Shown here piece after piece: positions 7,461 to 38,933 of a DNA stretch of 64,000 nt. A program made the translations under genes and the position numbers. The stretch is from Thermogutta terrifontis (lineage in GTDB: Bacteria; Planctomycetota; Planctomycetia; Pirellulales; Thermoguttaceae), in NCBI RefSeq assembly GCF_002277955.1, contig NZ_CP018477.1, forward strand, positions 2,439,206 to 2,503,205, written 5' to 3'. The stretch's first letter is position 1. Each line of letters opens with the position of its first letter. The notes under the pieces were generated by a model. It worked only from the letters and a program-made list of their open reading frames with translations, had not been told where the DNA came from and ran no database searches.

Positions 7461-8224
7461 GCCATTGTGTTCCACGACGGCGGTTTCAGCCACACGTGCC
7501 ACACCCGAGAGCGAGCCAGTTCTTTGTATCCGGACGAGCGATACAAACCAAGAGCCGGCTCATTATGCCCCTGAGTTGCAACCGTGATTTTATCACCGCC
7601 AGTTGCTGCCACGTAGCTTTCCGCGGCGCGAACCAGTCGCGATCCAATTCCTTTTCCTCGAACCTCCGGTCTAACGGCAATGAGCGTGATTCTTCCAGCC
7701 CTTTCCTGCCGTCGAACCGAAACAAATCCCATAATCCGAGTATCGCTCAAATAACCAAAGCTTGCGTCTGCGAGGATGCCCCGGAGGCTGTTTTCCGCCC
7801 AAATGCGAAAAAGTCTTTCTCCAATCGTTCGAGGAATCATCGGGTCGCACATAAAGCGCGAATGTGAGCCCGCAATAACCCCCAATTCCGAGATTTCTTC
7901 AACATTACAATTAATTTCGGTAAGTGCCACGATACTTTCACGCTCTTCACGGAGATTAGGAGCATCCGTCAGCCCTTTTTCAAGTTCCACACGCTGGCAT
8001 GTAAATACGCTGATGACATTATTGAGAATACTGGCTGGTGGGGCTGCGTTGGGCGGAGCGAAGACATAAAGAAGCGTCACATTGATCTTTCGGGCATCGG
8101 CAATGGCCTCAGCAATCTCGCTCAGATTCCCTGACCAGTCCGTCCGCGCGACCGGGAATCCGAAAAAGTCACTATCCCATTCCAGCACAACGGGTGTCAT
8201 GAAACTCCGCAGCCAATTTGCCAA
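7457..8224 (-). CDS. GNAT N-acetyltransferase, WecD/RffC-like
   Basis: A 255-residue acetyl-CoA-dependent acetyltransferase. It opens with VLEWDSDFFGFPVARTD, matching the start of enterobacterial WecD (RffC), which N-acetylates dTDP-4-amino-4,6-dideoxygalactose. The GNAT acetyl-CoA loop is at about residues 185-200 (AVRPEVRGKGIGSRLVRAAE), and the NEPALGLYRSSGYKE segment follows. It lies directly after wecE (3 bp gap), the aminotransferase that would make its substrate, so an N-acetyl step in dTDP-Fuc4NAc synthesis is a good inference. An alternative start (MTPVVLEW, 8200) would remove eight residues. The specificity for Fuc4N is inferred from context, not proven by any residue. Confidence 0.85.
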   Translation of the reverse strand: MANWLRSFMTPVVLEWDSDFFGFPVARTDWSGNLSEIAEAIADARKINVTLLYVFAPPNAAPPASILNNVISVFTCQRVELEKGLTDAPNLREERESIVALTEINCNVEEISELGVIAGSHSRFMCDPMIPRTIGERLFRIWAENSLRGILADASFGYLSDTRIMGFVSVRRQERAGRITLIAVRPEVRGKGIGSRLVRAAESYVAATGGDKITVATQGHNEPALGLYRSSGYKELARSRVWHVWLKPPSWNTMA

Positions 8225-14282: not shown

Positions 14283-16412
14283 TCACCCCGTCGCTGGCAG
14301 TCGCTCCACAACCCCGGCTGCACACAAGGTGAGAAGCGTCACATGGATGAAGGTCTCCGGGGCGATGAGCGGCCGCGAATCTGCCAGACTGGCCAGAAAC
14401 GCCGCGATAGCGCGACTGTGCCCCTTATCCGCCGTCCAAAGATTTTTTTTGTGCCGCCGGATGCCGTCATCGAGGATCAGCGTCTTAAAATCTTCCAGCA
14501 CCGCCGAGCAGCCACCGGCGTGGACCTCGATCCGCTCTTTACTGAAGCCCGGTGAACCGTTAGTCGAATAAATGAGATGACAGATGGAACCGTCTTTATA
14601 ACGCACTAAAAACTGCCCGTCGTCACGCGGTGAGACACCCTGGGGACTAAGGCGCTGCAGTTCCAATGGCTCCGAGTCAGTCAGGAATGCGAAGAAGTCG
14701 AAGAAATGGCAGGCCTCGCCGATGATGCGGCCACCCTCGGCCGGGTCGGCCAGCCAGTGGTCGCGCGGAATTGGACCGGCGTTGACACGATAGGTGACGC
14801 TGAGCGGCCCTCGGCCTTTTGTGAACTGTTTTAATTCCTGGGCCAGCGGGGCGAAGCGGCGGTTGAAGCCCACCATGAGGTGGCCACCCGTTTTTTGTAA
14901 AGTTGCCTGCACAGCTTCGAGTTGGTCCGGAGTGATGGCGAGGGGCTTTTCGCAGAAGACCGCCTTACCGGCCTCAAGGGCCCGGCACACAAGCGGCGCG
15001 TGCTGCGAGTGCCGGGTCACGATGAACACGACGTCCGTGTCTGAGTCGTTCAGAATTTCGTCGACATCCGTTGCGCACCATTGGAAGCCGTACTTTTTGC
15101 CCACAGTTTGGGCCGTCATCCCCGAGGCGGTCACAATTCCCCGAAACCGCACCTGGGGCAGCTTTTTCAAAATGGGGAGCAGGACTGCCTGGGCGAAGTT
15201 GCCCGCCCCGATAAAGGACACACCCAGCGTGGCCTTGTCGATCGGGCGGGCCGGAGCTAGCAGTTCGATTCGCCGGGCAGAAGCCGTCTCACGGGAGGGA
15301 TACGTGAGGACGATTCCCAGATAGGGCTCCCTGCCGTGGAGCATGAGCTCAAAGGCCTCGATTGCCCGATCGATGGGGAAACGATGCGTGGTGAGGATAC
15401 TCGGTCGAACGGAACCGGCCGCGACTAATTCTAAAAATGCCTGTAAGTTTCTCTGCTCGGTCCAGCGAATATATCCCGGTGGATAGTCGTGGCCATGTTC
15501 TTCATAGTCGGGATCATAACGACCCGGTCCGTAGGAGCGAGAAACAATAAACGTCAGCTCTTTTTCGTAATAGGGTTTTCGCGGGATATTCATTCCCGTG
15601 ACGCCGACCATGATGACCCGGGCACGGTCCCGTGCGAGTTCGGCGGCCAGTTCCACCGGGGCATTGCTGGAGGTGGCGGCTGTGATGATGATCGCGTCGG
15701 CACCCAGACCGTGTGTCCAGGTCCGAACGGCCGAGATGGAAGCCGAGTCAGGCGGCAGAGCCAGTGAGGCGCCCCCGGTGAGTGCGAGCTCGCGTCGCGC
15801 GGGGACCGGATCGAGGCCCGCGACCTGGCAGCCGGCAGCCTTCAGAATCTGCACAGCAAGCTGGCCCAAAAGCCCCAGGCCGATGACGACGACGTATTCG
15901 CCGACTTGCACATCGGCATTGCGAATGCCCTGCAGGGCGATGGCGCCCAGCGTGGCGTAGGCCGCGTCTTCGCAGGCGACGCCATCGGGAATCGGAGCGG
16001 CCAGGAGCTCGGGCACGGCGTTGTATTCGGCGTGATTGGCTATTCCCGCCCCGGCGCATGCCACCCGCTGACCAACACGGAAATGCCGCACGGCAGGCCC
16101 CGCGGCGACGATTTCACCCGCACAGCTATAGCCAAGCGGCATCCAGCGGTCGAGCTGCTGCTGGACGCTTCGGAGCGTGGCCCAGAGGCCATCGCGCTGG
16201 AGTTTGGTCAGTACTTTCTTGACGAGATCAGGCCTGGCCCGGGCTTTGCCAAGCAGTCCCTTCCGGGCAAGCTGGGCGACCATGCGCTCGGTGCCGGCGG
16301 AAATGAGCGAGGCCTCCGTGCGGACCAGCAGTCTATTCCCACCGACCTGCGGAAGCGGAATATCCGCAAGCTCTAATCGACCATTACGAACGTTTTGGAG
16401 GAGTTGGTACAT
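14283..16412 (-). CDS. Bi-domain oxidoreductase: zinc alcohol dehydrogenase fused to Gfo/Idh/MocA
   Basis: A 709-residue fusion. The N-terminal half (about 1-360) is a medium-chain alcohol dehydrogenase with a GroES-like fold (NRLLVRTEASLISAGTERM), PLGYSCAGEIVAAG, GAGIANHAEYN and the nucleotide-binding VVIGLGLLGQLAVQILKAAG. The C-terminal half (about 375-709) is a Gfo/Idh/MocA oxidoreductase with VSFIGAGNFAQAVLLPIL, the FCEKPLAI motif and MVGFNRRFAP. Such fusions are found in EPS loci beside heparinase-like genes and probably oxidise or reduce a nucleotide sugar in two steps. The start MYQLLQNVRNGRL (16412) matches the family; the frame is open a further 11 codons. Confidence 0.9.
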   Translation of the reverse strand: MYQLLQNVRNGRLELADIPLPQVGGNRLLVRTEASLISAGTERMVAQLARKGLLGKARARPDLVKKVLTKLQRDGLWATLRSVQQQLDRWMPLGYSCAGEIVAAGPAVRHFRVGQRVACAGAGIANHAEYNAVPELLAAPIPDGVACEDAAYATLGAIALQGIRNADVQVGEYVVVIGLGLLGQLAVQILKAAGCQVAGLDPVPARRELALTGGASLALPPDSASISAVRTWTHGLGADAIIITAATSSNAPVELAAELARDRARVIMVGVTGMNIPRKPYYEKELTFIVSRSYGPGRYDPDYEEHGHDYPPGYIRWTEQRNLQAFLELVAAGSVRPSILTTHRFPIDRAIEAFELMLHGREPYLGIVLTYPSRETASARRIELLAPARPIDKATLGVSFIGAGNFAQAVLLPILKKLPQVRFRGIVTASGMTAQTVGKKYGFQWCATDVDEILNDSDTDVVFIVTRHSQHAPLVCRALEAGKAVFCEKPLAITPDQLEAVQATLQKTGGHLMVGFNRRFAPLAQELKQFTKGRGPLSVTYRVNAGPIPRDHWLADPAEGGRIIGEACHFFDFFAFLTDSEPLELQRLSPQGVSPRDDGQFLVRYKDGSICHLIYSTNGSPGFSKERIEVHAGGCSAVLEDFKTLILDDGIRRHKKNLWTADKGHSRAIAAFLASLADSRPLIAPETFIHVTLLTLCAAGVVERLPATG

Positions 16413-16570
16413 GGGGAGAAAAGAGTACCTTGATCCAAGGACCAAGCCACTGCTTACGTGGAACTCGGCGACTAATAGCAGGATTTCAAATGCGTTACAA
16501 CGTCATCCAATCATAGCCCAACACAAGGCAAACATACCGCTGCAAGAGGACTTTGAGTGCCATCTAAGGT

Positions 16571-17095
16571 TCATGCAGAATAGTCGCTAATAACTTCCTG
16601 GGGAATTTCATCAAATAAATGTGTCGGCCTTGCAGGGGCGTACTTGCCGGCACTTCGTAAGCGCCACACCCAGCCGAATCGCTCAGCAGCCCGCATTCGC
16701 AGCGCAACATCTTGTGGCCGGAAACCAGGGTGAACTTGAATTCGATACAGTCGATAAGTGCATGACTTTGGAGAATTAGTTCCACGTCGGGTTGTAGCCA
16801 CGGTGTAATAAATATTTTGTTCGCGAATAAGCGTTTCGATTCTACGATTAAATATCCCAAATGGATACGCGAAATGTAAAATTTCAATTCCGAGCTTGTC
16901 TTCCAAGATGTTTTTTGATTCCAGCAACTCCTGGCACAATCTCTGATCGCTGCAATATGTTAGAGGAATGTGCGTGAGAGAGTGTGCTCCAACCTCGTGC
17001 CCACGCGCCAGCCATTCTTTTAATTCTGACCAATGCATTGCGAAACCGATTTTACCTCCTAGTTCGAATTTCCGCTGTTTTACATAGCCCGGCAC
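16571..17095 (-). pseudogene. Polysaccharide deacetylase (NodB) C-terminal part, separated by a frameshift
   Basis: This frame continues the deacetylase domain begun in the neighbouring GT4 gene. It reads from VPGYVKQRKFELGG through GHEVGAHSLTHIPLT, which holds the H-x3-H metal ligands, FAYPFGIFN, and the C-terminal YTVATTRRG segment. The metal-binding aspartates (TFDD) lie in the other frame. The only start codon is a GTG at 17095 inside the overlap, with no ribosome site, so independent translation would give a domain lacking its first aspartates. Deleting one AT from the ATAT at 17099-17102 restores a continuous reading (T-Y-A-V-P-G-Y-V). It is either a recent frameshift, a sequencing error or a site of slippage. 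Confidence 0.8.
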
Positions 17096-18561
17096 GGCAT
17101 ATAAGTGCAGGCCTTCAGATTATGGCCTTCTAAAATCGGTAAAACGGTCTCATAAACACTTTTTTCTGCATCGTCGAAGGTGATCGTCAGTAACGGTGAA
17201 GTATGTCTTGCGTCACCGAGTCTCCTAAGAGCTTCAGAAATGGTTGCGACTTCGAACCTTTCTTTCAGCCATTTAACCTGCTTTTCAAATGCTTCGGCAC
17301 AATTCTTAGGCACATCATGATATAGCAGAATGTACCACCTGTGCCGAGGCCACCTCGATACTGTAGAAAAAGCAAACGCTCTGAGTAAAACCTCTTGATA
17401 CCTCATCATTTCTGGGATCCGAGCAATGCCTGCTCGTAAATGGAAGTCAAAACACTGACGTGAAAGCCGATGGTGAAGGGTTTGACTTTGTCGGATGTCC
17501 CGATCGACGTAATAGCCCCGCCTCCTCGCGAGATTCAAAGCACACGACGCCCACTCAGAAGGGGAAGCCGACAGAGACAAGAACTGGAGGTTCTCTGATA
17601 GGATTACCTCTCTCGTGACATTGTCAGAAGCCACGATGGGAATGCCACACAATTGTGCCTCAACAAGTGCAATTGGTAAACCTTCCCACTTGGAGGGAAA
17701 AACCATTACATCGAGGGCACCCAAGAGCGTATGAACGTCATTTCGATAACCCATCATGCGGATATGATGGGATATTCCCATACTCCTAGCCATTTTTTCG
17801 ACCTTCTGACGAAGGGGACCCTCTCCAACCAGTAGCAGGCATGCGTCTTTCCGACGATTAACCAACTCTCTGAAGACTTCGAGCAGAAATACGTGATTCT
17901 TTGCCTCTAAAAAATTTCCAACGTGACCCACTACGAAAGCGTTTGGGTCAATATTGAGCTCGCGCCGTATGTCGTCTTGATTCAGATGAGGGCTGTGGAT
18001 CGCGGGGTCGATACCTCCAGGAAGGATATGCAGTTTTCCACGCTCCTTCGCCTTCTTTGAGAATTTGCATCCAAATAGCGAGTACGCCGCCGCCTGAGAG
18101 CACGCTAGCCAATGGGTAGGAAACAGGTTGATCAACTTGCTGACAACTGTAGGCACAACCCGCAAAACAGTCGTCGTTTGTCTGCCCGCTGTTTGAGCAT
18201 GCGCTATTCGGACGGGCACGTGATTTGAGGCAGCAATTTGCAGGGGCACAATGCTAAAAAAATGGTAATGGGTGTGCACAGCGTCATACGCATTATTTTT
18301 GAGAATCTTGCTAAGAGATCTTCGGTATCCAAGCAAATGTTTCCTATTTGGCAATCGGTAAATCTGGGCCCCCTGCGCAAGAAGGTTTTCTGGAGCCTCA
18401 GACGAGCATTCCATATGCACTGCGAAGTCGAAATGAAAACGTCTTGGATCTAGGCGATCCCTAATGCGGCTTAGCCATTTAGAGACTCCCCCTCCGGACA
18501 ACCTGGGCAAAACATGAAGCACTCGTATAGGACGGTTTCCCATTTTAGGGTTACCCATCAA
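17080..18561 (-). CDS. GT4 glycosyltransferase fused to the start of a polysaccharide deacetylase
   Basis: A 493-residue product. Residues 7-385 are a GT4 glycosyltransferase: RVLHVLPRLSGGGVSKWLSR, THYHFFSIVPLQIA, donor half from VVGHVGNFLEAKNHVFLLEV and FPSKWEGLPIALVEAQLCGIP near residue 300. From about residue 420 the chain changes to a NodB deacetylase opening (YILLYHDVPKN, LLTITFDDAEKSVYETVLPIL) and stops at a TAA within the fold. The remainder continues in another frame at 16571-17095. GT4-NodB fusion is unusual; it would combine sugar transfer and N-deacetylation. Start may be 18561 or 18543 (MGNRPIRVLHV). The glycosyltransferase half should still be functional. Confidence 0.85.
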   Translation of the reverse strand: MMGNPKMGNRPIRVLHVLPRLSGGGVSKWLSRIRDRLDPRRFHFDFAVHMECSSEAPENLLAQGAQIYRLPNRKHLLGYRRSLSKILKNNAYDAVHTHYHFFSIVPLQIAASNHVPVRIAHAQTAGRQTTTVLRVVPTVVSKLINLFPTHWLACSQAAAYSLFGCKFSKKAKERGKLHILPGGIDPAIHSPHLNQDDIRRELNIDPNAFVVGHVGNFLEAKNHVFLLEVFRELVNRRKDACLLLVGEGPLRQKVEKMARSMGISHHIRMMGYRNDVHTLLGALDVMVFPSKWEGLPIALVEAQLCGIPIVASDNVTREVILSENLQFLSLSASPSEWASCALNLARRRGYYVDRDIRQSQTLHHRLSRQCFDFHLRAGIARIPEMMRYQEVLLRAFAFSTVSRWPRHRWYILLYHDVPKNCAEAFEKQVKWLKERFEVATISEALRRLGDARHTSPLLTITFDDAEKSVYETVLPILEGHNLKACTYMPCRAM

Positions 18562-18653
18562 GTTGCACTCCCAATCTATTTATCGTCAATGCAGCCAGCG
18601 ACCTAAACAAAAGGAAAACCTACGCGAAAACAGTTGTTATATATATGCAAAGC

Positions 18654-19415
18654 TTAGCACCGAATCCTATCGAGAGGATGAATCGGCCAGCCATAGCGGT
18701 CTCTAGGCAGATTTGTTTTTTGCCGGGGCGTTAATAGAAGCTTGATAATGTCGCCAAGTGTTCCGCGGCGTCTACCACTGTGATAAACAGGGTCATAAAG
18801 AGACGAATCCTGGGCGGCGCTCAGCATGTGCAAGCCTCGCTGCTTCGCATATCGTGCTATCTCGTACATTCGCTGATGGTCTTCGCGGCTTCTATACGGA
18901 ATGTCAGGATGGATCCCGCCGATACCGTCGACTGCGGAGCGACGAATGAACTGATTGGGACCAGTCCATGCATGGATACGAGGAGCTTTACCAAAAACTA
19001 AGGCAACTGTGCGAAGAATCCGAAACAACGGATGCGTGTACTCATAAACGATGCCCGTGGAAAGGGCGATCACGTTATCGCGCTCTTTCAAGGTTCTTAA
19101 GTTCGTTTGCAAAATGGTAATGTGTGCAGCCAGCTGATTTCGATTTAAGGGTGGAACTACTCGGGCATCGCAATCGGTAAGCCACACGAACTCAACTGTC
19201 GGAGCCATACAATCGTAAGCCGCTCGGCGGGCCTTGCCCATACCGGGAATGGGCGCAAATGCCCTCTTAACACCGCAAGCTTCAATGACGAGGGGTGTTT
19301 CATCTGTGCTCGCGTTGTCAGCAACAATCAATTCCGCTTCGCCGGGAACCACGTCCAAAAGCGTATAGGAAACGAGAGTAGCGAGTAATTCCATCGCGTC
19401 GTTTCGTGTTGGCAT
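18654..19415 (-). CDS. GT2 glycosyltransferase, 5' end uncertain (possibly frameshifted)
   Basis: A GT2 catalytic domain with MPTRNDAMELLATL, ELIVADNASTDETPLV, VEFVWLTDCDARVVPPL (DxD-type), NQFIRRSAVDGIGG and YRSREDHQRMYEIA. The first ATG (19415) falls after the first beta strand. The same frame stays open upstream for about 43 codons and encodes SPVVSIQ directly before MPTRND, the strand every GT2 needs, plus ETEFRRFCEPIRERI. No ATG, GTG or TTG lies in that stretch before a stop at about 19547. A second frame supplies ATG codons at 19558 and 19522, so a one-base deletion near 19515 would explain it. The annotated start is therefore a minimum. Confidence 0.75.
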   Translation of the reverse strand: MPTRNDAMELLATLVSYTLLDVVPGEAELIVADNASTDETPLVIEACGVKRAFAPIPGMGKARRAAYDCMAPTVEFVWLTDCDARVVPPLNRNQLAAHITILQTNLRTLKERDNVIALSTGIVYEYTHPLFRILRTVALVFGKAPRIHAWTGPNQFIRRSAVDGIGGIHPDIPYRSREDHQRMYEIARYAKQRGLHMLSAAQDSSLYDPVYHSGRRRGTLGDIIKLLLTPRQKTNLPRDRYGWPIHPLDRIRC

Positions 19416-19658
19416 CTGGATTGAGACGACAGGAGAGCTGTCGCTAAACTTAGCCGTAATTCGTTCTCGAATCGGCTCGCAAAATCGCCTAAACTCAGTC
19501 TCGCCAATAAGCTTACATACATTCGGTTCGCGTTGCTTGGCCCGCGATTATGCGGCATTTCGACACAGAAAGTAACTTAGATATTCATCCCAGGACCAAG
19601 ATTGCCAATCCCGCAGGCTAGGGCGATGTGACAAGAGCATGGTTTACCTTTTCCGAAA

Positions 19659-20591
19659 TTACTCTGATAACTTGGTCCTCATCTCCCACATTTTTGCATT
19701 GATATGAAACTCTTGAATCGCTTTTAACACGGCATAAATGAAACCTGGTTTACCGTCGAGGAAGCCCAGGCGGATGACGTACATGTAAATGAATCTCAGA
19801 AGAGGCCGGCAAGGCAGCCGAATCCACAGCTTTTTCAGCCATCGTTTGCGTTCGACCGGGTTACCAAGCAACCGTGCAGGGATCGAATGTGAAAGATCCT
19901 TCCCCTGCAGTAAATTGAGCCGCAGTTTAGCATCCCAGGTAGAATAGTTGTTATGCCGGACAATCCAGCGGGAAAGATCTTTATAGTCGAGGTGTAGCAG
20001 AGGCTCCCGCAAATATCCCGCTTTACCCTGAAGGACGACGTGTTCGTGGACTTCTACATCGCCCGCCGACTCTAATTCCTCGGTATCTAACTTTTCATAT
20101 CGGCCAAGCTCATGTCTAAATAGTCGCAAATTCCAACTGGGGTAATTCCCGCCAAAGCGGAGCCACCGCCCCATAAAAATGAGTTTCCGATTCAGGTAAT
20201 ATCCGTCGAACCGGGGACCTTGTACAAACTCCTGTCGTATTTCCCGTTCGAGCTCGGGGGTAACCCGTTCGTCGGCATCCAGTAGAAGAACCCATTCGTT
20301 GCGAAAAGGTAAATTTTCCAGGGCCCAATTCTTTTTGCGAGGCCCGCCGGGTACGAATCTAAACTGGACCACCTTCGCCCCCATTGACTCCGCGATGGCG
20401 GCGGTCCGGTCCGTACTACCCGAGTCGACGACAAACACCTCATCGGCAAAACGGACACTTTCGAGGCACGCTGCGATATTCTGTTCTTCGTTGAGAACGG
20501 GCACGATAACCGAGATCGGCAGAGTGTCTTGCTTCGGCCGATCCGGTTCTTCGGCAATATTCGACCTTTCAGCAACTATACCTTCCGACAT
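19659..20591 (-). CDS. GT2 glycosyltransferase (WaaE/KdtX-like)
   Basis: A 310-residue GT2 enzyme of the WaaE/KdtX type, which add glucose or heptose to lipopolysaccharide cores. Seen in order: PISVIVPVLNEEQNIAACL, DEVFVVDSGSTDRTAAIAE, the RKKNWALENLP acceptor loop, WVLLLDADERVTPELE (DxD near residue 120), GRWLRFGGNYPSWNLRLFR and VEVHEHVVLQGK. The start MSEGIVAERSNI at 20591 is preferred; it overlaps the preceding GT4 remnant by 16 bp. It is the gene directly downstream of the duplicated GT4 segment. The LPS resemblance is structural; the acceptor here is unknown. Confidence 0.9.
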   Translation of the reverse strand: MSEGIVAERSNIAEEPDRPKQDTLPISVIVPVLNEEQNIAACLESVRFADEVFVVDSGSTDRTAAIAESMGAKVVQFRFVPGGPRKKNWALENLPFRNEWVLLLDADERVTPELEREIRQEFVQGPRFDGYYLNRKLIFMGRWLRFGGNYPSWNLRLFRHELGRYEKLDTEELESAGDVEVHEHVVLQGKAGYLREPLLHLDYKDLSRWIVRHNNYSTWDAKLRLNLLQGKDLSHSIPARLLGNPVERKRWLKKLWIRLPCRPLLRFIYMYVIRLGFLDGKPGFIYAVLKAIQEFHINAKMWEMRTKLSE

Positions 20592-20911
20592 TGGGCAACC
20601 TTGCAATACACCAGTTCCAACTGATCTGCCACCGCCTGCCAAGTTAGGTGCTGTTGTACATACTCCCTTCCGCGTTGGCCGAGTTTGGTCTTATCGGCCT
20701 GGAGGATTTTTCGGATTCCCTCGGTCAGTCCTTCTACGCTGTCGTCAACCGTGAGCCCACAGCCAGAGGCATTGACATAAATGTGGCTGGCCACGCCTGG
20801 CGTCACCACAACTGGCAAGCCGTGGGCCATGGCCTCAACCACCACCACGCCGAAGTTTTCCGACTGAGACAGCAAGAACACGATGCTGCACCAATCATTT
20901 ATTCTATGCAT
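20576..20911 (-). pseudogene. GT4 glycosyltransferase C-terminal remnant
   Basis: A 111-codon frame that is only the last quarter of a GT4 enzyme: SQSENFGVVVVEAMAHGLP onward. The acceptor half and the start of the donor half are missing. Over 77 residues it matches the C-terminal part of the complete GT4 gene at 22739-23995 at about 68 positions by my count, and the DNA (20639-20869 versus 22850-23080) is nearly as similar. It opens one base after the stop of the FkbM methyltransferase and ends inside the start of the WaaE-like gene. It cannot be catalytic alone and is best read as the residue of a duplication or recombination event. Confidence 0.85.
20639..20869. repeat. Direct repeat, left copy (231 bp, GT4 C-terminal coding)
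   Basis: This 77-codon block pairs with 22850-23080 in the same orientation. Long identical runs are seen, for example around the SQSENFGVVVVEAMAH coding part, with scattered substitutions elsewhere. Flanking sequence diverges abruptly on both sides of both copies. The two copies bracket the FkbM and GT genes. Confidence 0.85.
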
Positions 20912-20912
20912 G

Positions 20913-21674
20913 TCAATGAAAAATCACCGTTAAGTATTCCCCAAGTGGAAGAATAGAACCCTTTCTCTTGTGAACATACCGCCGAAAAAGTTCTGTGACA
21001 CCCGGGTAATAACGCTCATGAAGCTCAATAACCAAAGCGCGACAAGTAGTAAATAGGGTAGTGTCGAACAAAAGCCCTTCCGCACCCTCGATATCGCACT
21101 TTATAAGGTCCACCGGTCCACCTACAGCATGGACGAGCTCATCTGGTGTGACAACTGGCACCGTAAGTCCGAGGTGTTCTGATTTGGTGCGAAAAGACAC
21201 TGTTAGAGCCTCTGGGTTCTCGATAACAACTGTTTCTTTTCGGGGCCAACATGCTGCTTCGACGACATGTACGTTAGTATATGGTCGGAGATTGCGCCGC
21301 AGTATCCTAGCATTGTCTGGATGGGGTTCCACGCACAGGATTTTGGCACGTGGCCATACTGCAACATACAGCAAGCTACAGTACCCCACATTTGCCCCCA
21401 AATCGACGATGGAACGAGGTTCAAAAGAAAGACTGGGCAAACACTCTCGATCTCTAACAATCTTTCGAAGTAACGCGAAGTCACTGGCATCTCGGCGAAT
21501 CCACACACGTGATGGAATACCCCGTACGCGCACACCAAACTCCTTGGATGCGCAGAGTCGGTGCCAAACGATCTCAACCGCTCCTCTGAACCCGAATTCG
21601 CGGCAGTAGGCTATGAAGTTTCGGATTCTACCTCGCCATTGGGACCTAGCGGTGCGCATTCTTGTAGGCTTCAA
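20913..21674 (-). CDS. FkbM family methyltransferase
   Basis: A 253-residue SAM-dependent O-methyltransferase. Motif I is SIVDLGANVGYCSLLYVAVWP near residue 90, followed by CVEPHPDNARILRRNLRPYTN, the typical FkbM signature, and VDLIKCDIEGAEGLLFDTTLF near residue 190. FkbM proteins methylate hydroxyl groups on sugars and lipids. Its start overlaps the end of the upstream GT gene by 29 bp, and together they form the two-gene cassette enclosed by the duplicated GT4 segment. The cassette is more AT-rich than genes outside the block, consistent with later acquisition. Confidence 0.88.
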   Translation of the reverse strand: MKPTRMRTARSQWRGRIRNFIAYCREFGFRGAVEIVWHRLCASKEFGVRVRGIPSRVWIRRDASDFALLRKIVRDRECLPSLSFEPRSIVDLGANVGYCSLLYVAVWPRAKILCVEPHPDNARILRRNLRPYTNVHVVEAACWPRKETVVIENPEALTVSFRTKSEHLGLTVPVVTPDELVHAVGGPVDLIKCDIEGAEGLLFDTTLFTTCRALVIELHERYYPGVTELFRRYVHKRKGSILPLGEYLTVIFH

Positions 21675-22734
21675 GGTCAGCTTCCAAACATTTCAGGAAA
21701 TCATCTGGCTGACAGAACCGTTTTGCTTTATTTGGTATATGCCGAAATAACTCTGCGGCGGCCACCGGTCCACTGCCGTTCTCCAGAAGAATACCATTAA
21801 TCAGCGTACAGAACCGGTGACGGTACTCTTCGATTTTTTCCAGGACGCACGTTCGCACCCACTCTGGATGGAGGTTACGCGACGCAAGCTCATCCACAGC
21901 ACGGGCTACGCTTTCTGGATTGTCATCTGCTATCAAGAAACAACCCTTTGGGAAAAGCGTGTCTCGTCCTCCCCGACAATGCGTGGAAACCACCGGTATG
22001 CCGCATAGCAAGTACTCACCAACAGCCTGACACTGTCCTTCTGTGGCACTAAGAGCGAGGCCAACTTTGGCACTCGAGATAACGGTGCGCAGTTCCGAAC
22101 CTACAAGTTTTCGATATGTTCCAGTAACCCAGTTGGCCCAAGTCGCGTGGCTAAGAAGGCTCTTCGTACTATCGAGATACCGTACTTCGCTCGGGCTACT
22201 TGGCCGCAGATGGATTACAACCAGAGAGGATACGTTTTTTGCCAGGTAGTGTCTCTTGAACGGGCTTGGTCTGGCGTTTAAGCAAGCTAAGTACAATTGT
22301 TTAGTCCGCTCTGGATAGTATTCGTACTCACTTAAAAAGCAATTCTTATTGATGTGAATTGCTGTGAGTCCTAGTTTCTTAAGTAATATCATTTCTTGTT
22401 CTGAATTACAAAGGAATATCAAAGCATGATGGGGAGATTTTCGCTCTAAAGTCCTCGCCTGCCGCCGTAATCGTACAGCGTGATATAAGGATTCCATTGA
22501 CCAGGAAAATGCGACCAGAATTGTAACCGGCACACTCTCAAGTTGATTGGATATCCAAGCAACGTTCCAGAGCGACCGCATCACGGATGTCATAATAATT
22601 AGAGGTTTAGGGTGGATTAAACAGTAGTTAAATGGGCCTGAGGGCCGCATCGCATCGTGCGTGACCAAGGCTTTGATCGAGCGTAGGAACTCCCGAATTG
22701 TGCCCATGGTTCCGGCTATTGTGCTCCAAATCAA
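21646..22734 (-). CDS. Divergent GT-B glycosyltransferase
   Basis: A 362-residue protein whose second half looks like a GT4/GT1-type donor domain: VIHLRPSSPSEVRYLDSTKSLL near residue 190, and the sugar-nucleotide site LALSATEGQCQAVGEYLLCGIPVV near residue 240, followed by HCRGGRDTLFP. The N-terminal half carries IHPKPLIIMTSVMRS and an FLCNSEQEMILLKKLGLTAIHIN segment and is weakly conserved with anything I know. A likely start is M10 (MGTIREFLRSIK, 22707) rather than the first ATG. It lies 4 bp after the complete GT4 gene and overlaps the FkbM gene. A sugar transfer role is likely; the family placement is less certain than for the other GTs. Confidence 0.75.
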   Translation of the reverse strand: MIWSTIAGTMGTIREFLRSIKALVTHDAMRPSGPFNYCLIHPKPLIIMTSVMRSLWNVAWISNQLESVPVTILVAFSWSMESLYHAVRLRRQARTLERKSPHHALIFLCNSEQEMILLKKLGLTAIHINKNCFLSEYEYYPERTKQLYLACLNARPSPFKRHYLAKNVSSLVVIHLRPSSPSEVRYLDSTKSLLSHATWANWVTGTYRKLVGSELRTVISSAKVGLALSATEGQCQAVGEYLLCGIPVVSTHCRGGRDTLFPKGCFLIADDNPESVARAVDELASRNLHPEWVRTCVLEKIEEYRHRFCTLINGILLENGSGPVAAAELFRHIPNKAKRFCQPDDFLKCLEADLEAYKNAHR

Positions 22735-22738
22735 GGAT

Positions 22739-23995
22739 TTATTTGGTTGTTAACCGTATCTGTTGGTTTACAGACCGGTTTCTCCTGCGAGTCCTTTGGT
22801 TTCGAATTATTGCTGCATAGACTTCACTTATCTTCTCGCTCACTACAATCCATGTTAGGTGTTGTCTCACATACTCCCTTCCGCGTTGGCCGAGTTCGGT
22901 CTTATCGGCCTGGAGGATTTTTTTAATCCCGTCGGTCAGCGCGTCGACGCTGTCCTCCACTGTCAGCCCGCAGCCTGAAGCGTCCACGTAGATGTGGCTG
23001 GCCACGCCCGGTGTCACCACAACTGGCAAGCGGTGGGCCATGGCCTCAACCACCACCACGCCGAAGTTTTCCGACTGAGACGGAAGCACGAGAACGTCAG
23101 CCGCCTCGAACAGTTGTCGTTTTTGATCGCCCGTCACAAAACCGAAGCGTTTCACCTGTCCATTGAGTCCGCTTGATGCGATGGCGGCAGCAAGTTGTGA
23201 TTCGGCACCCGCGTCAGGCCCGGCAAAGATAGTAAATAAATCTGGATATTCTGAAAGAAGTTTAGACGCGGCCTGAATGACCCAATCAGGACGTTTTTTC
23301 GGAGTTAATCGGGAGAGATAAAGAAGCACTTTCGCCCGCTCCGGTATATTTAACGCCCGGCGTGCTGCCGGAGCATCGGTTTGCGCATCCTTCACGCCGG
23401 CTACTCCATGGGGTATAACCACCACATTGTTCAATCCAAACTGTTCGCGCAGCTCATCTTTCTCGGCGGGAGTTGTTGCCTGAACCGCCGCGGCCAGTCG
23501 CAGGTCCTTCGCCACAAAGAGCGTGGTGAACCACCTTTTCATTGCGGTGCGGCCAAGGGCCATGCAACGGGGGGCGAAGGTACCTGCGGGGCGCATGATA
23601 TAGGGGACGCCGAACCTGCGGGCCAGCCGGGGGGCGAATGTCGTCAGGTGGCTGAACACCCCATGGATGTGGACGATATCGGGTCGAGCATCTAAATCCG
23701 CCAGCCGACGCCGAAGCCACCGATATGCTTGTGGGGTCCAGGTAAATCGAGCAACGGGGCGCGTACGACCATAACCACGGGCAATGAACAGCTCGGCCCC
23801 TGAAAAGGCTGGATCATTGTTCATTCGCTCGCGAAATTGATCATCCGGCATCCACGGTTCGGCAGATTGGGCATTGGTCGTGAGAATACTCACCTGATGG
23901 CCACGCCGCACCTGCTCCTGGACCAGGCCCCTCAACGCGTGGCTTGGACCACCGGACCGGGGATCAATGCTGTGGATGATGTGGAGGATACGCAC
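22739..23995 (-). CDS. GT4 glycosyltransferase
   Basis: A complete 418-residue GT4 enzyme. The acceptor half has MRILHIIHSIDPRSGGPSHA, HQVSILTTNAQS and DIVHIHGVFSHLTTFAPRLA; the donor half has VLLYLSRLTPKKRPDWVIQA near residue 235 and VLPSQSENFGVVVVEAMAHR near residue 310 with both conserved glutamates. Its last quarter is duplicated at 20639-20869. After the shared 77 residues its tail is unrelated to the remnant and strongly basic (RNQRTRRRNR), suggesting that the downstream end was replaced when the cassette entered. It begins 4 bp after the O-antigen ligase-like gene. Confidence 0.92.
   Translation of the reverse strand: MRILHIIHSIDPRSGGPSHALRGLVQEQVRRGHQVSILTTNAQSAEPWMPDDQFRERMNNDPAFSGAELFIARGYGRTRPVARFTWTPQAYRWLRRRLADLDARPDIVHIHGVFSHLTTFAPRLARRFGVPYIMRPAGTFAPRCMALGRTAMKRWFTTLFVAKDLRLAAAVQATTPAEKDELREQFGLNNVVVIPHGVAGVKDAQTDAPAARRALNIPERAKVLLYLSRLTPKKRPDWVIQAASKLLSEYPDLFTIFAGPDAGAESQLAAAIASSGLNGQVKRFGFVTGDQKRQLFEAADVLVLPSQSENFGVVVVEAMAHRLPVVVTPGVASHIYVDASGCGLTVEDSVDALTDGIKKILQADKTELGQRGREYVRQHLTWIVVSEKISEVYAAIIRNQRTRRRNRSVNQQIRLTTK
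22850..23080. repeat. Direct repeat, right copy (231 bp, GT4 C-terminal coding)
   Basis: Partner of the repeat at 20639-20869, lying in the intact GT4 gene. About 2.2 kb separates the two copies. Confidence 0.85.
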
Positions 23996-23998
23996 GGA

Positions 23999-25249
23999 TC
24001 AAGAATGCCCAATAACAACACACTGATATTCGGGAGTTCTCGTCTTTACAAGGCGGGACTGTGTCGTGCCAATGCGGGATAAGAAATCCAGAACCCCCAG
24101 TCCGAATCCAAATAGGAAGGTGTTGATGGTCGATCCCAAAATCAGGGCCGATTCCGCCATCCCATGAACCGCAAGCCCAATCACGATTGCCAAAGCGAAC
24201 CAAAACTGCGGAGCCCATTCCGGCGATAAAGATTTGTAAACACGTCGAGCCGTGCTGAGAATAGACATACCTGCTATCACAAGCGCAATTGCCCCGAAAA
24301 TGCCAGATTCCGCAACTGTTTGCAAATAGAGGTTTTGCAAATTCCCTGTACTTCTGCCAGAGCTTGATAACCAGCCGTGACCGAAAACAGGCTGACTGAG
24401 AATTAACTTGATTCCAACTTGCCACATTCCAGCACGCGTGTTCTTCTCGAAATCAGTCAATCTCTCGGTGGCCTCAACCGGAAGTTGAGCGCTCCAAACC
24501 AGCAATATCAGCGTCACACCAGCAACCGGCAATAAGAATCTTGCAGGACGGCGTATCCAAGGGACTAATTGAAGTGAACCACCAAGAACCGCTAACGCCA
24601 ATGCAGCCCTCGACCCAGTTGCCACGACCAACAGTATCAAAATTGCTGTCCCTAAAGTACCTAGAAGGCGCCAAATGCCTCGATCGTTTATTGCTAAATA
24701 TGACGTAAGAAATAGATAGCCTCCGGCTGTCATTCCAACCGCGTTGGCATTAATTCCATAAATAGCCAGCCGGCCAAGACGCGTCGTTTCTGCAGGATTT
24801 CTCAAATACTCGTACCAGGTCACGACAGCGGCCACTGTGGCAATCCCTCCCAGCCACTTCATCAGTTGTCGGAGAGATGCTGAAGTTGGGGAGGACAACC
24901 CCATCGCAATACCGAAGCACAGCGAGCTTAAAAACAGGGTCTTGTAAGCGATGCCCTGAAGCGGGTATCTTGACCACGTAGCGGCTAACACATAAATGAA
25001 GGCAAACCAAAGTATCGCTGGGGTTGCTCCGCCGCTGCGTCTTAACGCACCACTGAGCAATGCTGCAATTCCACCTAAGAAACACAACCCGATTCGAAGC
25101 AATTTCAGTTGCGATGACGACTCCCATTGGGTTGCCAACGACAACGGTGCAATTACGAGAAAAACCCCTGCAATGACGGCAGGAAAAAATACCAGGGGAC
25201 GTGTTGTTGTCGCGAAGTTCACATCAAGTCTCCACCCGGTATGTCCCAC
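23999..25249 (-). CDS. O-antigen ligase / polymerase-like membrane protein (Wzy_C)
   Basis: A 416-residue integral membrane protein with ten or more hydrophobic segments. The Wzy_C/O-antigen ligase hallmark is a large periplasmic loop with FGHGWLSSSGRSTGNLQNLYLQTVAESGIFGAIAL near residues 285-320; the family has a conserved H or Q-N-x-L and a downstream E-x-G-x2-G, seen here. Members either polymerise repeat units (Wzy) or ligate chains to an acceptor (WaaL, PglL-type). Its presence beside an ABC exporter is notable, since ABC systems normally do not need a Wzy. It lies 4 bp upstream of the GT4 gene and 3 bp downstream of another. Confidence 0.85.
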   Translation of the reverse strand: MGHTGWRLDVNFATTTRPLVFFPAVIAGVFLVIAPLSLATQWESSSQLKLLRIGLCFLGGIAALLSGALRRSGGATPAILWFAFIYVLAATWSRYPLQGIAYKTLFLSSLCFGIAMGLSSPTSASLRQLMKWLGGIATVAAVVTWYEYLRNPAETTRLGRLAIYGINANAVGMTAGGYLFLTSYLAINDRGIWRLLGTLGTAILILLVVATGSRAALALAVLGGSLQLVPWIRRPARFLLPVAGVTLILLVWSAQLPVEATERLTDFEKNTRAGMWQVGIKLILSQPVFGHGWLSSSGRSTGNLQNLYLQTVAESGIFGAIALVIAGMSILSTARRVYKSLSPEWAPQFWFALAIVIGLAVHGMAESALILGSTINTFLFGFGLGVLDFLSRIGTTQSRLVKTRTPEYQCVVIGHS

Positions 25250-25252
25250 ATG

Positions 25253-26443
25253 TCAAAACGGCTTTGCACTGCTTGCAAGAGCCAGGTAACATTGTTTAGT
25301 AGTGAGCACGTTCCGCTCCCACGAGAATTCATGGGCAACGCGTTCACACTCCCACTGCCTATCGCCTTCAATTGCCTGGATAATTTCCCGTATCCCCTCA
25401 CGCAGGTGTTCGACATCATCCGGTGGCACGAGAACTCCCACCTGATATTTCTTAAAGATCTCCCTGAAAGTGGGCAACGCCGATGCGAGCATGGGGCAGT
25501 TGTGCGCGATGGCGACGTTTAACACCCCGCTTTGCGAAGTAAAGGAACGGCTGTAAGGAAGGGCGAGCCAATCTGCCAAGGTAAATAGATTTGGAACTTC
25601 CTCGTACGGGATATAGTACGTCATCCATTTGACATGAACGCCATCGTGAAGCCCCAATTGCTCGGCCAGTGACCGAAGTTGGGAGATCGACGTACTGCGT
25701 TTAGCCTGTCCCGCTACGACGAGGAATAGCCGATCTTTATAAGGCACCATGGCCTGCAGAAAAAGATCAAGGTTTTTATCCGGGCGAATATCACCAAAAA
25801 AGAGGGCCACTTGTTTGTCCAAAGGTACTCCGTAACGCTTGCGGAGCGTTAGCTTGTCGCCTGCGGGTAGTCCATGGTAATATGGACCATGAGGCACAAT
25901 ATGCACTTTTTCTGGGGAAACGCCTGCAAAGTTAATCAAGTCTTGTTTCTGATACTCGCTATGGACAAAAAGGGCATCGCACGCTCGATAAAGACGTTTG
26001 AGTTGTTCGATCTCGTAGGGATAGCAGATTAAGCCCTGGGAACGGCGCACGTCATGCGCGGTGACCACGAGCCGAAGCCCGGCTTTTTTTAACTTTCGAG
26101 ACCACAGCGCAAAGGTTACATGAGGAATCGTCGATAGGTGCAGAATTTGGGCTCCTGTCAGTCGCGCCCGCCTTATTGCCCGAATCGGGTTCACGAACAG
26201 GTTGATTGCGAACCGCAATCGCCGCCGGAGTGGTACAGGATGCGTTATTTCGCGGAGGCCCGGCCAAGTCGGATAGTTTGCCTGCTTCAGATAGTGATAA
26301 CTGGGAATACACGCAAGCTCAACTTCGACTTCTGGCTGGTCCCGCAGGCGGGTCAGCAGTTCATGAACGTAGCGCCCAATTCCTCCGCCGGGGAAAGCGA
26401 AATAATGGAGCACGCGAACAGGAGTTTTGTTGTCCGACATCAT
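25253..26443 (-). CDS. GT4 glycosyltransferase
   Basis: A 396-residue GT4 enzyme. N-terminal VRVLHYFAFPGGGIGRYVHELLTRL is a classic GT4 opening; ILHLSTIPHVTFALWSRKLKK and FVHSEYQKQDLI follow in the acceptor half. The donor half has VALFFGDIRPDKNLDLFLQA near residue 215 and LALPYSRSFTSQSGVLNVAIA near residue 300, where a Ser-rich loop replaces the usual E-GxP-x-E motif, as in some GT4 relatives. It overlaps the stop of the upstream GT4 gene by 4 bp. Role: addition of one sugar to the repeat unit. Confidence 0.9.
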   Translation of the reverse strand: MMSDNKTPVRVLHYFAFPGGGIGRYVHELLTRLRDQPEVEVELACIPSYHYLKQANYPTWPGLREITHPVPLRRRLRFAINLFVNPIRAIRRARLTGAQILHLSTIPHVTFALWSRKLKKAGLRLVVTAHDVRRSQGLICYPYEIEQLKRLYRACDALFVHSEYQKQDLINFAGVSPEKVHIVPHGPYYHGLPAGDKLTLRKRYGVPLDKQVALFFGDIRPDKNLDLFLQAMVPYKDRLFLVVAGQAKRSTSISQLRSLAEQLGLHDGVHVKWMTYYIPYEEVPNLFTLADWLALPYSRSFTSQSGVLNVAIAHNCPMLASALPTFREIFKKYQVGVLVPPDDVEHLREGIREIIQAIEGDRQWECERVAHEFSWERNVLTTKQCYLALASSAKPF

Positions 26444-27648
26444 TTGCTTTCAATCGTTGCCGCCGCTGTTGTATTCACAGCTTGATAATAAAGGCTCATC
26501 AGATTTTCAACATGCTGCCCCAGAAGAAAGCCTTCCTTAATTGTCCGAATGGCGTTCTGGCTCATCCGTTGAAGGCTCTCGGGCGAGTTGAGAAGCCGTC
26601 GGACTGCATCGGCTAGGGCGGTCGCATCGCGCGGGGGAACGAGAGCACCGTTGACTCCGTCCCGCAGCCATTGTCTAACTCCGCCGACGTCACTGGCAAC
26701 AACGGGCACACCGTGGGCCATAGCTTCCAGACCAACGATGCCGAGGGTTTCAGGCCAAACAGATGGAAAGACGAATATCGTCGCGGATTTGAATAGTTCC
26801 GGGATTTGGCCACGGGATGCCCAGGGATGGACTTCCAACCTTGACGCACAATCCCATTTCTTTGCAAGTTCATTGATCCGCCTTGATGTGTCGCCATTTA
26901 AATCACCTACCAGGATCCCTCGCACTTCTGCGAGCTGGCCGAGGGCTCTAATGAAGACATCATAACCCTTTATTGGGCGAATCCGCCCCACAAAAAGGAT
27001 TGTCGGCTTAGGGGGCGTCGGCCGCGGCTCATCCAACGGTTCGATAGGACAGAAGTAGGGCAGGGTTTGCGTTTTTTCCGCGGGGAAGCCAGCGCTGAGA
27101 AGTCGCTCCCGTACTGATTCACTCGGACATATGATCTTCGCAAAGCGTTCTCGCCATTGAAGGAACGTTTTGACTCGTCGATAGTAGGCCAGTGCGTACC
27201 TGGGTTTTGGGGTTAAACAATGTTTAAAGAGCGTCACTGCGAAACACGCAAGGCCGGCTTGCCGCTGGCAGATCGTTTTTGTCCGTCGATAAAAGAAGCT
27301 TCCGGCGGGGCACAGATACAAATAGTCATGACAGGTTACGACAGTGGGGCAAGATTCGAGACATGCTCGCAGCGCTCCCAAATTATAAACGCGATGGACG
27401 TGAATCACATCCGGCTTTATTTGATCCAGAATGCACCTTACCCGCTCGTATCCCAATTGTTCGGCGCGCTTTCCGAAGTGGCCGAGCTCCGGTACCTCAA
27501 ACGAGTTAGGGAGAAGAGACGAATTGCCCTTGGCAAAGGCGTAGTACTGTTCGAGCCCATGCGACTCGAGCGCCGGAATTAAGTGGAGGAGATAGGTTTC
27601 GACTCCCCCGGTCCAGTTGAGATGTTCATTTAGGTGAAGGATTCGCAC
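26440..27648 (-). CDS. GT4 glycosyltransferase
   Basis: A 402-residue GT4 enzyme. It opens VRILHLNEHLNWTGGVETYL, with PDVIHVHRVYNLGALRACL, a cysteine-containing LYLCPAGSFFYRRTKTICQR loop typical of a GT4 subgroup, and CPSESVRERLL; the donor half starts TILFVGRIRPIKGYDVFIRA and has FPSVWPETLGIVGLEAMAHGVP near residue 310. The start is taken as the GTG at 27648, two bases after the upstream stop; the frame is open to 27741, but that would add 31 residues of unlikely sequence and overlap the upstream gene by 91 bp. Confidence 0.88.
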   Translation of the reverse strand: MRILHLNEHLNWTGGVETYLLHLIPALESHGLEQYYAFAKGNSSLLPNSFEVPELGHFGKRAEQLGYERVRCILDQIKPDVIHVHRVYNLGALRACLESCPTVVTCHDYLYLCPAGSFFYRRTKTICQRQAGLACFAVTLFKHCLTPKPRYALAYYRRVKTFLQWRERFAKIICPSESVRERLLSAGFPAEKTQTLPYFCPIEPLDEPRPTPPKPTILFVGRIRPIKGYDVFIRALGQLAEVRGILVGDLNGDTSRRINELAKKWDCASRLEVHPWASRGQIPELFKSATIFVFPSVWPETLGIVGLEAMAHGVPVVASDVGGVRQWLRDGVNGALVPPRDATALADAVRRLLNSPESLQRMSQNAIRTIKEGFLLGQHVENLMSLYYQAVNTTAAATIESK

Positions 27649-27650
27649 GG

Positions 27651-28655
27651 CTATCGTGTCGCACTGCTCGTTTGGGATGTCTGCACGGAACGCTGTTCGA
27701 CCACCGCGAGCCAGCCAATATCTCGCAAATAGCAGCTCCAAGCCAGCTTGTCACGATGTGCCGAAAGGAGCCGGGGCAGAATAGAGACAAGGTCTAGATG
27801 GGCACGAAGGAACGCTCGAAACGGGATCGCGGATCGTCCCAAGGCCGCCCGTGCCGCATTCCGAGGCATTTCCCAGCTGATATATTTCAGAAATCCGCCG
27901 ATACGGCTTTTCCATTTCCACCGGGCTGCGTAGATTATGCGATTTCGGGCAATCCACCTGGCCCGGCGGAGGAACGCCTGGCGATTTGTGGTTGCTGACC
28001 CGCCGAAATGGCCCACCCGAGCCCGCGTGCAAATGCCCACCTTGTATCCCGCCGACGAAATGCGCCGGCAAAGGTCATAGTCTTCGTAATAACTGCCATA
28101 AATGGGATCGAATGGCCCCGCCTTTTTGAGGGCTTCCGTGCGCACGACCATCGCGGCGGCCGTGATCTCGGGAACCTCGATAAATGCCGGAAGATCATCG
28201 ACACTAACCTTGAGTCCCTCTCGCACCCTTGCATTTAGGGCAGGGTCGGCTCGCGAGCAGGTCAGAAAGGCCTCGTCCCAGGCCGTGCCGTCGTAGTTCT
28301 CGATAAGTGGGATTACAGCCCCGATATGCTCATCCTGTTTCATCACATCCAGGCAGGCCGACAGCCAATCTTCGCGGGAAACGGTGTCTTGGTTCAGGAA
28401 ACAGATATACTCGCTGTCCATTCCGCCGTTGATGAGTGCGAAATTGTTGGCCTCGGAGAAGGGCATCGTCCATGGCGTTGCGATCGTCGAAAGATCTTCT
28501 GTGGCGTTCACAAGCTCAAGTAACTTTTCATTTCCGCCGTTATCGACAATCATTATCTTCGAATCTGCCGACGACACAACTTCTAGCGACTCAAGACAAC
28601 ACTTGAGCCAGGGGTCACCCTGATGTGCAGCTACTATTACAGTTATCTCGTCCAT
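27651..28655 (-). CDS. GT2 glycosyltransferase (rhamnosyltransferase-like)
   Basis: A 334-residue GT2 enzyme resembling WbbL-type rhamnosyltransferases. Motifs: EITVIVAAHQGDPWLKCCLESL, KIMIVDNGGNEKLLEL, NNFALINGGMDSEYICFLNQDT (the NQD variant of DxD near residue 93), AMVVRTEALKKAGPFDPIYG and YYEDYDLCRRISSAGYKVG near residue 190. The C-terminal part is basic and may sit on the membrane (ARWIARNRIIYAARWKWKSR). It abuts the sulfotransferase stop-start region with no gap. Donor unknown, though the NQD motif is common in rhamnosyltransferases. Confidence 0.9.
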   Translation of the reverse strand: MDEITVIVAAHQGDPWLKCCLESLEVVSSADSKIMIVDNGGNEKLLELVNATEDLSTIATPWTMPFSEANNFALINGGMDSEYICFLNQDTVSREDWLSACLDVMKQDEHIGAVIPLIENYDGTAWDEAFLTCSRADPALNARVREGLKVSVDDLPAFIEVPEITAAAMVVRTEALKKAGPFDPIYGSYYEDYDLCRRISSAGYKVGICTRARVGHFGGSATTNRQAFLRRARWIARNRIIYAARWKWKSRIGGFLKYISWEMPRNAARAALGRSAIPFRAFLRAHLDLVSILPRLLSAHRDKLAWSCYLRDIGWLAVVEQRSVQTSQTSSATR

Positions 28656-34598: not shown

Positions 34599-35477
34599 TT
34601 ATGGCGCATAGCCCAAGCGCTTCGCAGTATCGCCGCACAAATTCCACAGGAGCGACCGGTTCTCGGAACATAACTCATTGTATGCAGAGCGAGGATATTT
34701 GGACGCATTATGCTTAACGGAAAGGACGGCTAAACATTGGTCGAGCATGTGCGTTTCGAAAGTCAGTCCTAGGAAAACCCACAGTCGCTGCAGTTGCTGA
34801 TTCGGATCTGCGATAAGGTCCTCGAGACGAACTAAGAGGTACCGCGATTCCGGGATAGTCTGTGCAAAATGAATCGCAAATGTGTTTATTTCTGACCACA
34901 GCCAGCATGCTTTTTCGAATGGGCTCATTCGGGACCATTCGTCCGCAGTTATCTGGAGGCTGGGATATGAATTGGGTTTTGTACCTTGTGAGTCGACCAG
35001 TAACGTTCGGGGCCGGATGCGCCAGCGGTCAAGGCTAGCCGCCTGATACCATCCACGGGCCAGACCTGACGCAACTACCTCGGCGGGATGGCGCACTAAA
35101 TGGATAAACTTACTCCGCGGAAGGGTAGTGCGAATGGCGGGGGCGAAGAACGTGAGCCAGTTGGACGTTTCGGCATAAAGGCGGCCTTTCAAATACGCGC
35201 TCGTTACGAGTTGCGATCGCGCTCGGTAAAGTATTTTAGCAAAACGCGCAAGTGGGATACATTCGTGCGCGTATGCGTCAAGCTCCTCAGCATATAAGTG
35301 TGGACGTGGTTCATGGTATGCGGCGATACGAGTGTCAATTGCGAGTAGTTTTGTGAGTGTTAAAGTTCCACTTCGACCGGTGGAAAGTACGAAGACGGCG
35401 TCTGTTTTTCTGAAAACAAAGGGCGAAATACAACGGATCAGAACCATTTTTAGCGGTCGGGGAATCATATGATACAT
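34599..35477 (-). CDS. Sulfotransferase
   Basis: A 292-residue PAPS-dependent sulfotransferase. The 5'-phosphosulfate loop is AVFVLSTGRSGTLTLTKLLA near residues 28-46, followed by AYHEPRPHLY; the 3'-phosphate region is FIHLVRHPAEVVASGLARGW near residue 123. SRYLLVRLEDLIADPNQQLQ near residue 210 is the usual closing segment. It lies just downstream of the Wzt gene, at the head of the sugar-assembly run, so it could sulfate the completed chain or its precursor. It is not closely similar to the sulfotransferase at 28656-29465. Confidence 0.88.
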   Translation of the reverse strand: MYHMIPRPLKMVLIRCISPFVFRKTDAVFVLSTGRSGTLTLTKLLAIDTRIAAYHEPRPHLYAEELDAYAHECIPLARFAKILYRARSQLVTSAYLKGRLYAETSNWLTFFAPAIRTTLPRSKFIHLVRHPAEVVASGLARGWYQAASLDRWRIRPRTLLVDSQGTKPNSYPSLQITADEWSRMSPFEKACWLWSEINTFAIHFAQTIPESRYLLVRLEDLIADPNQQLQRLWVFLGLTFETHMLDQCLAVLSVKHNASKYPRSAYNELCSENRSLLWNLCGDTAKRLGYAP

Positions 35478-35543
35478 AGCCGTGAACTGTCAACAAATGT
35501 GTACCGATAGTATTGGTGCTGGTAGGCAAGGACACACAGGGAC

Positions 35544-36824: not shown

Positions 36825-37069
36825 GATGGCAGGTTAGAATCGGGGGAAACTCGCGCCAATAGGGGAGAAGATACGCCGCGGTGGACTGATCATGCGGAGT
36901 CCAAATGCTGGGGAAAGCTTCGTCCGGCGATTTCGCTGTGACGTCTGCGCAGCCTTCGGTCCCGTGGGTTGCGCGGAACCCCTTTCTCCAAAAGTTTTCT
37001 GATCATGTTGTAACTTAGCTTGCACTCAATAGGTCGGCAAACGAAGTAACGTGCGACCTATTTGCGTTC

Positions 37070-38128: not shown

Positions 38129-38179
38129 TGGAGCGCCCTGAAATATTCCGTCCTTTCCGCGCTGGCAAAGGTCTTTCGG

Positions 38180-38932: not shown

Positions 38933-38933
38933 G

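Follow-up and report, generated by a model that had tools for sequence, protein, structure and literature searches.

A duplicated glycosyltransferase gene end in Thermogutta terrifontis R1 as the probable scar of a one-sided homologous insertion

How does the 3' end of one glycosyltransferase gene come to stand twice, in the same orientation, on either side of two other genes? The question is raised by a locus in a 64,000-nucleotide stretch of the Thermogutta terrifontis R1 chromosome (2439206-2503205; hereafter the window, to which all positions below refer). T. terrifontis R1 is a thermophilic planctomycete with a single circular chromosome of 4,810,751 bases and a guanine-cytosine (GC) content of 57.34% (PMC5673643). 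The genes of the locus lie on the minus strand and, read in that direction, follow one another as a gene for a Wzy/O-antigen-ligase-type protein (25249-23999), an intact GT4 glycosyltransferase gene (23995-22739), a cassette of two genes encoding a GT-B-like glycosyltransferase, here called GTmid (22734-21646), and an FkbM-family methyltransferase (21674-20913), a stranded GT4 3' end, the remnant (20911-20576), and a GT2 gene (20591-19659). We propose that this arrangement in strain R1 is probably what a one-sided homologous insertion left behind in the GT4 gene of a surface-polysaccharide cluster. The locus is a clear but fairly ordinary relic of gene exchange.

The repeated gene end and the empty site in relatives

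The two repeat blocks, 22850-23081 within the intact gene and 20639-20870 within the remnant, are identical at 202 of 232 nucleotides (87%), lie 2211 nucleotides apart in direct orientation, and translate on the minus strand into sequences sharing 68 of 77 residues. The first-pass annotation, made from the letters of the window alone, had described a direct repeat of 77 residues, about 68 of them identical; it was right in this and in the placement of the blocks, to which one more matching base can be added. Identity falls to background within about 20 nucleotides at either edge. The repeat family has two copies and is the window's sole direct repeat of 60 bp or longer (14-nucleotide seeds). 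One block belongs, as had been said, to a complete gene: its 418 codons match PF00534 (107 bits), PF13579 (74.8) and PF13439 (67.4), which places the product among GT4 enzymes, while its best NCBIfam model, HpsP (NF038295), scores 211.9 bits, below the curated 550, so that it is not counted as an HpsP protein. The repeat copy there spans the latter portion of the C-terminal domain and includes a Glu-x7-Glu pair. The other block belongs to a truncated open frame of 111 codons that matches C-terminal-domain models only (PF00534 profile positions 93-160 of 172); it has no N-terminal domain and hence not the two domains of a GT-B enzyme. The ATG of this frame stands one base past the FkbM stop, and its end is overlapped by the likely GT2 ATG at 20591, as in a coupled operon.

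Comparison with relatives shows that the ancestral order was GT4 followed directly by GT2. One genome per species was compared, mostly from fragmented assemblies, some of them 79-87% complete; G000 denotes the window's own genome, G001 its congener Thermogutta sp. MAG-77, G002 and G003 other members of the genus, and G019 and G026 members of the same family. In G003, Wzy, GT4 and GT2 occur in the same order with nothing separating GT4 from GT2, the GT4 gene itself being split between two contigs that overlap exactly over 55 bp at their ends. In G019 and G026, GT2 also stands directly behind GT4, so that genomes with a single GT4 and no cassette, as the first-pass annotation predicted for such an insertion, do exist. 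The remnant sequence was searched at E<=1e-25 in 101 genomes of the family, taken from a larger group. The GT4 lineage was present in eight of them, twice in G000 and once in each of the other seven, and the single copy is therefore most simply taken as ancestral and the duplicate state as derived. Two full GT4 genes, which that annotation had named as the case against it, were found in none of these seven, all of which are other species and several of which are incomplete assemblies. In G002 there was no close copy of either gene (best 30% for GT4, 40% for GT2).

Which of the two 3' ends is the native one can be read from what follows the repeat. The remnant and GT2 align with G003 as a single collinear piece (window 20860-19679, 67.9%). 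In the 16-18 columns of the tail, identities to G021, G003, G019 and G026, the four genomes seen with the native GT2 behind GT4, number 9, 5, 6 and 5 for the remnant and 2, 3, 2 and 3 for the intact gene, whose own tail (22739-22849, minus strand) thus shares 2 of 18 columns with G021 and 3 of 18 with G003. Against G001, G016 and G030 the counts are 3, 3 and 4 for the remnant and 5, 2 and 5 for the intact gene. By these counts the remnant is native-like and the tail of the intact gene is not native; it was probably imported, and the intact gene would then be a hybrid, its body native and its 3' end imported. Entry of a cassette by recombination inside a GT4 gene had been suggested from the letters alone. 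This is supported in a refined form, in which it is the complete gene that carries the foreign-type tail and the stranded block that represents the native 3' end.

One residue of the hybrid deserves a remark of its own. The intact GT4 encodes Arg at 23032. Gly takes this place in the remnant (at 20821) and in all seven aligned relatives, mostly within EAMAHG.PVV. Among 40 matches to this pattern in the fetched loci and the window, the residue is Gly in 36, Ala in two, Glu in one and Arg in one, the intact GT4. The Arg may reflect an altered hybrid enzyme or a sequencing error.

The two genes brought between the copies are probably foreign. GTmid (362 residues) is matched in Pfam by C-terminal glycosyltransferase-group-1 models only and by no NCBIfam model. 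At E<=0.001 it was matched in 37 of 392 genomes of the phylum, its own included, with a best-scoring match elsewhere of 37% identity (short weak matches reach 41% over 44 residues) and with no match in any of the three congeners. The FkbM protein (253 residues) scores 77.7 bits against TIGR01444, whose cut-off is 37.7, and is a member of that family; it was matched in seven of the 392 genomes at E<=1e-15, again including its own, the best-scoring other being 34% identical and shorter or weaker matches reaching 35%. In 11 short loci and five longer stretches around their matches the two genes were never adjacent, and no donor was found in these searches of the 392 genomes. A contig scan with GT4 matched one locus, the G001 contig, but such a scan may omit the window's own and near genomes.

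The middle genes had also been called AT-rich. With 48.9% GC the cassette does lie below the window mean (54.5%), the 52.9% of the upstream flank (23082-26440) and the 57.5% found in GT4 upstream of the repeat, and just 2.6% of same-sized sliding windows are lower; the contrast does not extend to the downstream flank (16571-20575), which has 49.2%. Because that flank is equally low in GC, AT-richness was rejected as a sign of foreign origin.

The crossover trace and the routes that could have left it

A trace of the exchange may be preserved in the repeat itself. In its first 22 codons the two copies have no third-position difference and a single first-position change, at the Arg/Gly site, while G001 differs from both at five third positions; in the other 55 codons the copies differ at 22 third positions and G001 from both at 13. 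The longest run free of third-position differences has p=0.003, the best split p=0.011 and the contrast with G001 p=0.013 (Fisher). This pattern points to an exchange, with local homogenisation or shared origin, somewhere in the first 70 or so bases of the repeat.

It is proposed that a fragment came from another Thermogutta-like lineage and would have brought along the final portion of a homologous GT4 gene together with a second glycosyltransferase gene and the FkbM methyltransferase gene. Its truncated GT4 end would have been joined to its other end, giving a circle whose joint may survive as the 42 nucleotides that separate the repeat edge from the FkbM stop (20871-20912, minus strand). 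One crossover inside the repeat, probably within its first 22 codons, could then have integrated the circle. The expected outcome is a hybrid GT4 gene with a donor tail and new genes behind it, and a native GT4 3' end moved 2.2 kb downstream, still an open frame and still beside GT2. The product that we infer, from the enzyme families alone, is a polysaccharide on which the imported enzymes probably add a sugar and methylate it (O-methylation).

A single crossover with conversion and the invasion of a linear end both fit the crossover trace. The second case, homology-facilitated illegitimate recombination (HFIR), we regard as unlikely. In it the donor GT4 end on linear DNA would invade the native gene near codon 22 of the repeat, and the second end would be joined illegitimately about 70 nucleotides upstream on a sister copy and so duplicate the 3' end. 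This route needs no gene conversion to account for the absent third-position differences in the first 22 codons, and it agrees with the sharp upstream edge at 20870. As to homology at one end only, the repeat covers one anchor; 27 of the 42 spacer nucleotides (20882-20908) have no second copy at up to three mismatches in the window, where alone they were searched. However, the scenario requires two chromosome copies, and in the Escherichia coli test of this mechanism HFIR was expected to delete recipient DNA (PMC3240628), whereas the present locus has a duplication instead. In the same account, 56 of 60 clones gave the polymerase chain reaction (PCR) product of a duplication, ascribed to a single crossover, and four were HFIR-like (PMC3240628). 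We prefer the single crossover because it accounted for those 56 clones (PMC3240628) and because the displacement of Rhs gene ends has been explained in a similar way (PMC2935791).

Several points weigh against insertion through a circle and a single crossover. A plain single crossover predicts no identical first patch, and either local gene conversion or the linear-end mechanism must be invoked. The statistics of the patch are modest, a Fisher value of 0.0002 having used a boundary picked after the data were seen, and a second run, codons 55-72 (18 codons), is also free of third-position differences, in a part where G001 differs little as well. With no donor found, the circle and its joint are deduced from the recipient. 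The tail counts rest on just 16-18 columns, and codons 23-77 fail to assign the native copy: of 55 residues, remnant and GT4 share 45 and 45 with G001, 42 and 42 with G003 and 36 and 36 with G021, the remnant is higher against G019 (33 and 31), and GT4 is higher against G026 (31 and 34), G016 (29 and 30) and G030 (34 and 39). The missing close homologues are weak evidence of foreign origin, glycosyltransferases and FkbM enzymes being diverse.

The divergence of the two copies bears on the next explanation, that two full GT4 genes once flanked the GTmid-FkbM pair, by tandem duplication or block import, and that the second lost its 5' part by deletion. The same end product would be expected, and the remnant does begin abruptly; on the other side, the seven other family genomes that carry this GT4 have one copy apiece, and an extra event is needed. 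We consider this quite improbable. Between GT4 and the remnant the synonymous divergence (dS) is 0.48 and the nonsynonymous (dN) 0.059, a dN/dS of 0.12, the same ratio as between GT4 and G001. When G001 serves as the outgroup, the remnant shows 12 private changes, eight synonymous and four nonsynonymous, where about 76% nonsynonymous would be expected of a freely drifting fragment (binomial P=0.002; 0.009 if 70% is expected). Since the private changes are mostly synonymous, the remnant was probably part of a functional gene during most of the time since the copies separated. That a second GT4 decayed in place was accordingly rejected as the principal explanation, on the eight synonymous changes and on the one copy in each of the seven other genomes. 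That the remnant is an expressed small protein selected for a role of its own, such as a partner of the new glycosyltransferase, is scarcely credible: it has the open frame, the ATG beside the FkbM stop and the synonymous excess in its favour, but a gene that had been complete until recently would be just as likely to show this excess, the frame covers the end of a GT4 C-terminal domain with no N-terminal one, and the seven other family genomes matching at E<=1e-25 have no second, separate copy.

The G000-G001 comparison at 40878-50878 aligned four pieces of the 10-kb query at 88, 82, 74 and 72% (12-28% divergence), and because the 13% nucleotide divergence of the copies is similar, the two 3' ends may well have come from different species-level lineages. 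Separately, an 82.6% alignment of window 25701-28463 with G001 contains exact runs at 27479-27801 (323 bp) and 27832-27935 (104 bp), which span two adjacent glycosyltransferase genes and suggest an apparent recent exchange between species a few kilobases from the GT4 locus.

The cluster and the variable GT4 boundary

The surroundings of the locus form a surface-polysaccharide cluster with glycosyltransferases, the Wzy/O-antigen-ligase-type protein, a Wzt-type ABC protein, a sulfotransferase, a PF00953 sugar transferase, a Wzz/ATPase protein and an exosortase. The genes for the last five of these lie at 34599-44469, with that for the Wzy-type protein nearby, and two export routes are apparently mixed. 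At 14283-16445 a single 720-residue protein joins a zinc-type alcohol dehydrogenase domain to a GFO/IDH/MocA oxidoreductase domain.

The first-pass annotation had further supposed that the locus may be a hot spot for antigen or matrix switching. This is not supported within this genome, as the window contains no second such arrangement; silent copies for reassortment, expected of antigen switching, are likewise absent from it, no further direct repeat of at least 60 bp being present. The self-comparison took in 20 sequences (366,038 bases), namely the window, ten stretches of its own genome and nine stretches of relatives, and direct repeats of at least 80 bp were the GT4 repeat of the window and others in L103, L104, L105, L053 and L054. 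In the ten own-genome stretches (180,205 bases; eight other glycosyltransferase neighbourhoods and the left flank of the window) no second case was recognised, the repeats in L103, L104 and L105 not having been examined for genes. The repeat of L104 (own genome, stretch 658001-678000), at 5098-6069, is an overlapping near-tandem direct repeat of 542 bp with 96% identity.

What remains is variation between species at the GT4 3' boundary and no switching inside a strain. The order is a simple GT4-GT2 in G003, G019 and G026, and G000 has the cassette. In G001 a GT4 gene 88% identical to that of the window has a third tail, and behind it stands another GT2-like gene with 67% identity to the one that follows GT4 in G030; the best-scoring match to the native GT2 anywhere in G001 reaches 37% identity. 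In G021 a transposase-like insertion separates GT4 from GT2 by about 850 bp, an interval that holds a transposase-like frame and short palindromic repeats. That frame (L053, about 6643-7506) is accompanied by repeated GTCAGGCAC..GTGCCTGAC palindromes and resembles what we take to be REP-associated transposases. It is tempting, if doubtful, to see the GT4 3' end as a recurrent docking site in the family, as three of the loci compared (G000, G001 and G021) suggest, with conserved GT4 sequence as the anchor of homology by which entire downstream enzyme modules are swapped between species in the manner of Rhs genes. If so, a surface polysaccharide could be changed in one step while the anchor enzyme is kept intact.

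Comparison with known systems

In mosaic O-antigen and capsule clusters, which are common, glycosyltransferase cassettes are exchanged via recombination in conserved cluster genes. Unlike the typical case, the anchor here is a glycosyltransferase gene within the cluster, and the host is a thermophilic planctomycete.

A close parallel is Rhs C-terminal displacement, in which homologous recombination, by way of a proposed circular intermediate, gives a constant 5' body a new 3' end, while the old end survives further downstream together with a fragment of the conserved core (Jackson et al. 2009, PMC2935791). At the present locus, too, the old GT4 3' end was kept downstream, in the same orientation and with a piece of the conserved core. 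The structure fits a circular intermediate and a single crossover as proposed there, although the identical first 22 codons need gene conversion and no donor was found. The gene, however, is that of a GT4 glycosyltransferase with no Rhs core protein. There is one displaced end here instead of an array of dissociated tips, and the imported unit brings whole downstream genes.

Partial duplication of a homologous gene around imported DNA was also seen in E. coli, where the incoming DNA is thought to have been cut back into the homologous gene and recircularised, and where 14 sequenced single-crossover clones had duplications of 109-950 bp, as compared with 232 bp here (PMC3240628). That experiment used a laboratory plasmid with a piece of lacZ, whereas here the copies are 13% diverged and the event is read from an extant genome. 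In the displacement of effector modules of the Vibrio type VI secretion system, similarly, the module is anchored by one-sided homology, and the gene that ancestrally lay behind it is retained and displaced downstream; the genes there are for effectors and immunity proteins, not polysaccharide enzymes, and the accessible parts of that paper mention no duplicated gene end (PMC5361080). Among the titles and opening lines of abstracts listed in our literature search, none gave an account of such an event in a planctomycete or in a glycosyltransferase gene, and absence from print is not claimed. The locus can be viewed as a legible fossil of a polysaccharide cluster gaining sugar-modifying enzymes, in which one conserved glycosyltransferase gene provides the homology, remains whole and acquires a different tail. 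With the empty site, the native remnant and the probable crossover interval all readable, the displacement model becomes testable in a planctomycete, and the route described for Rhs genes would be extended to polysaccharide clusters.

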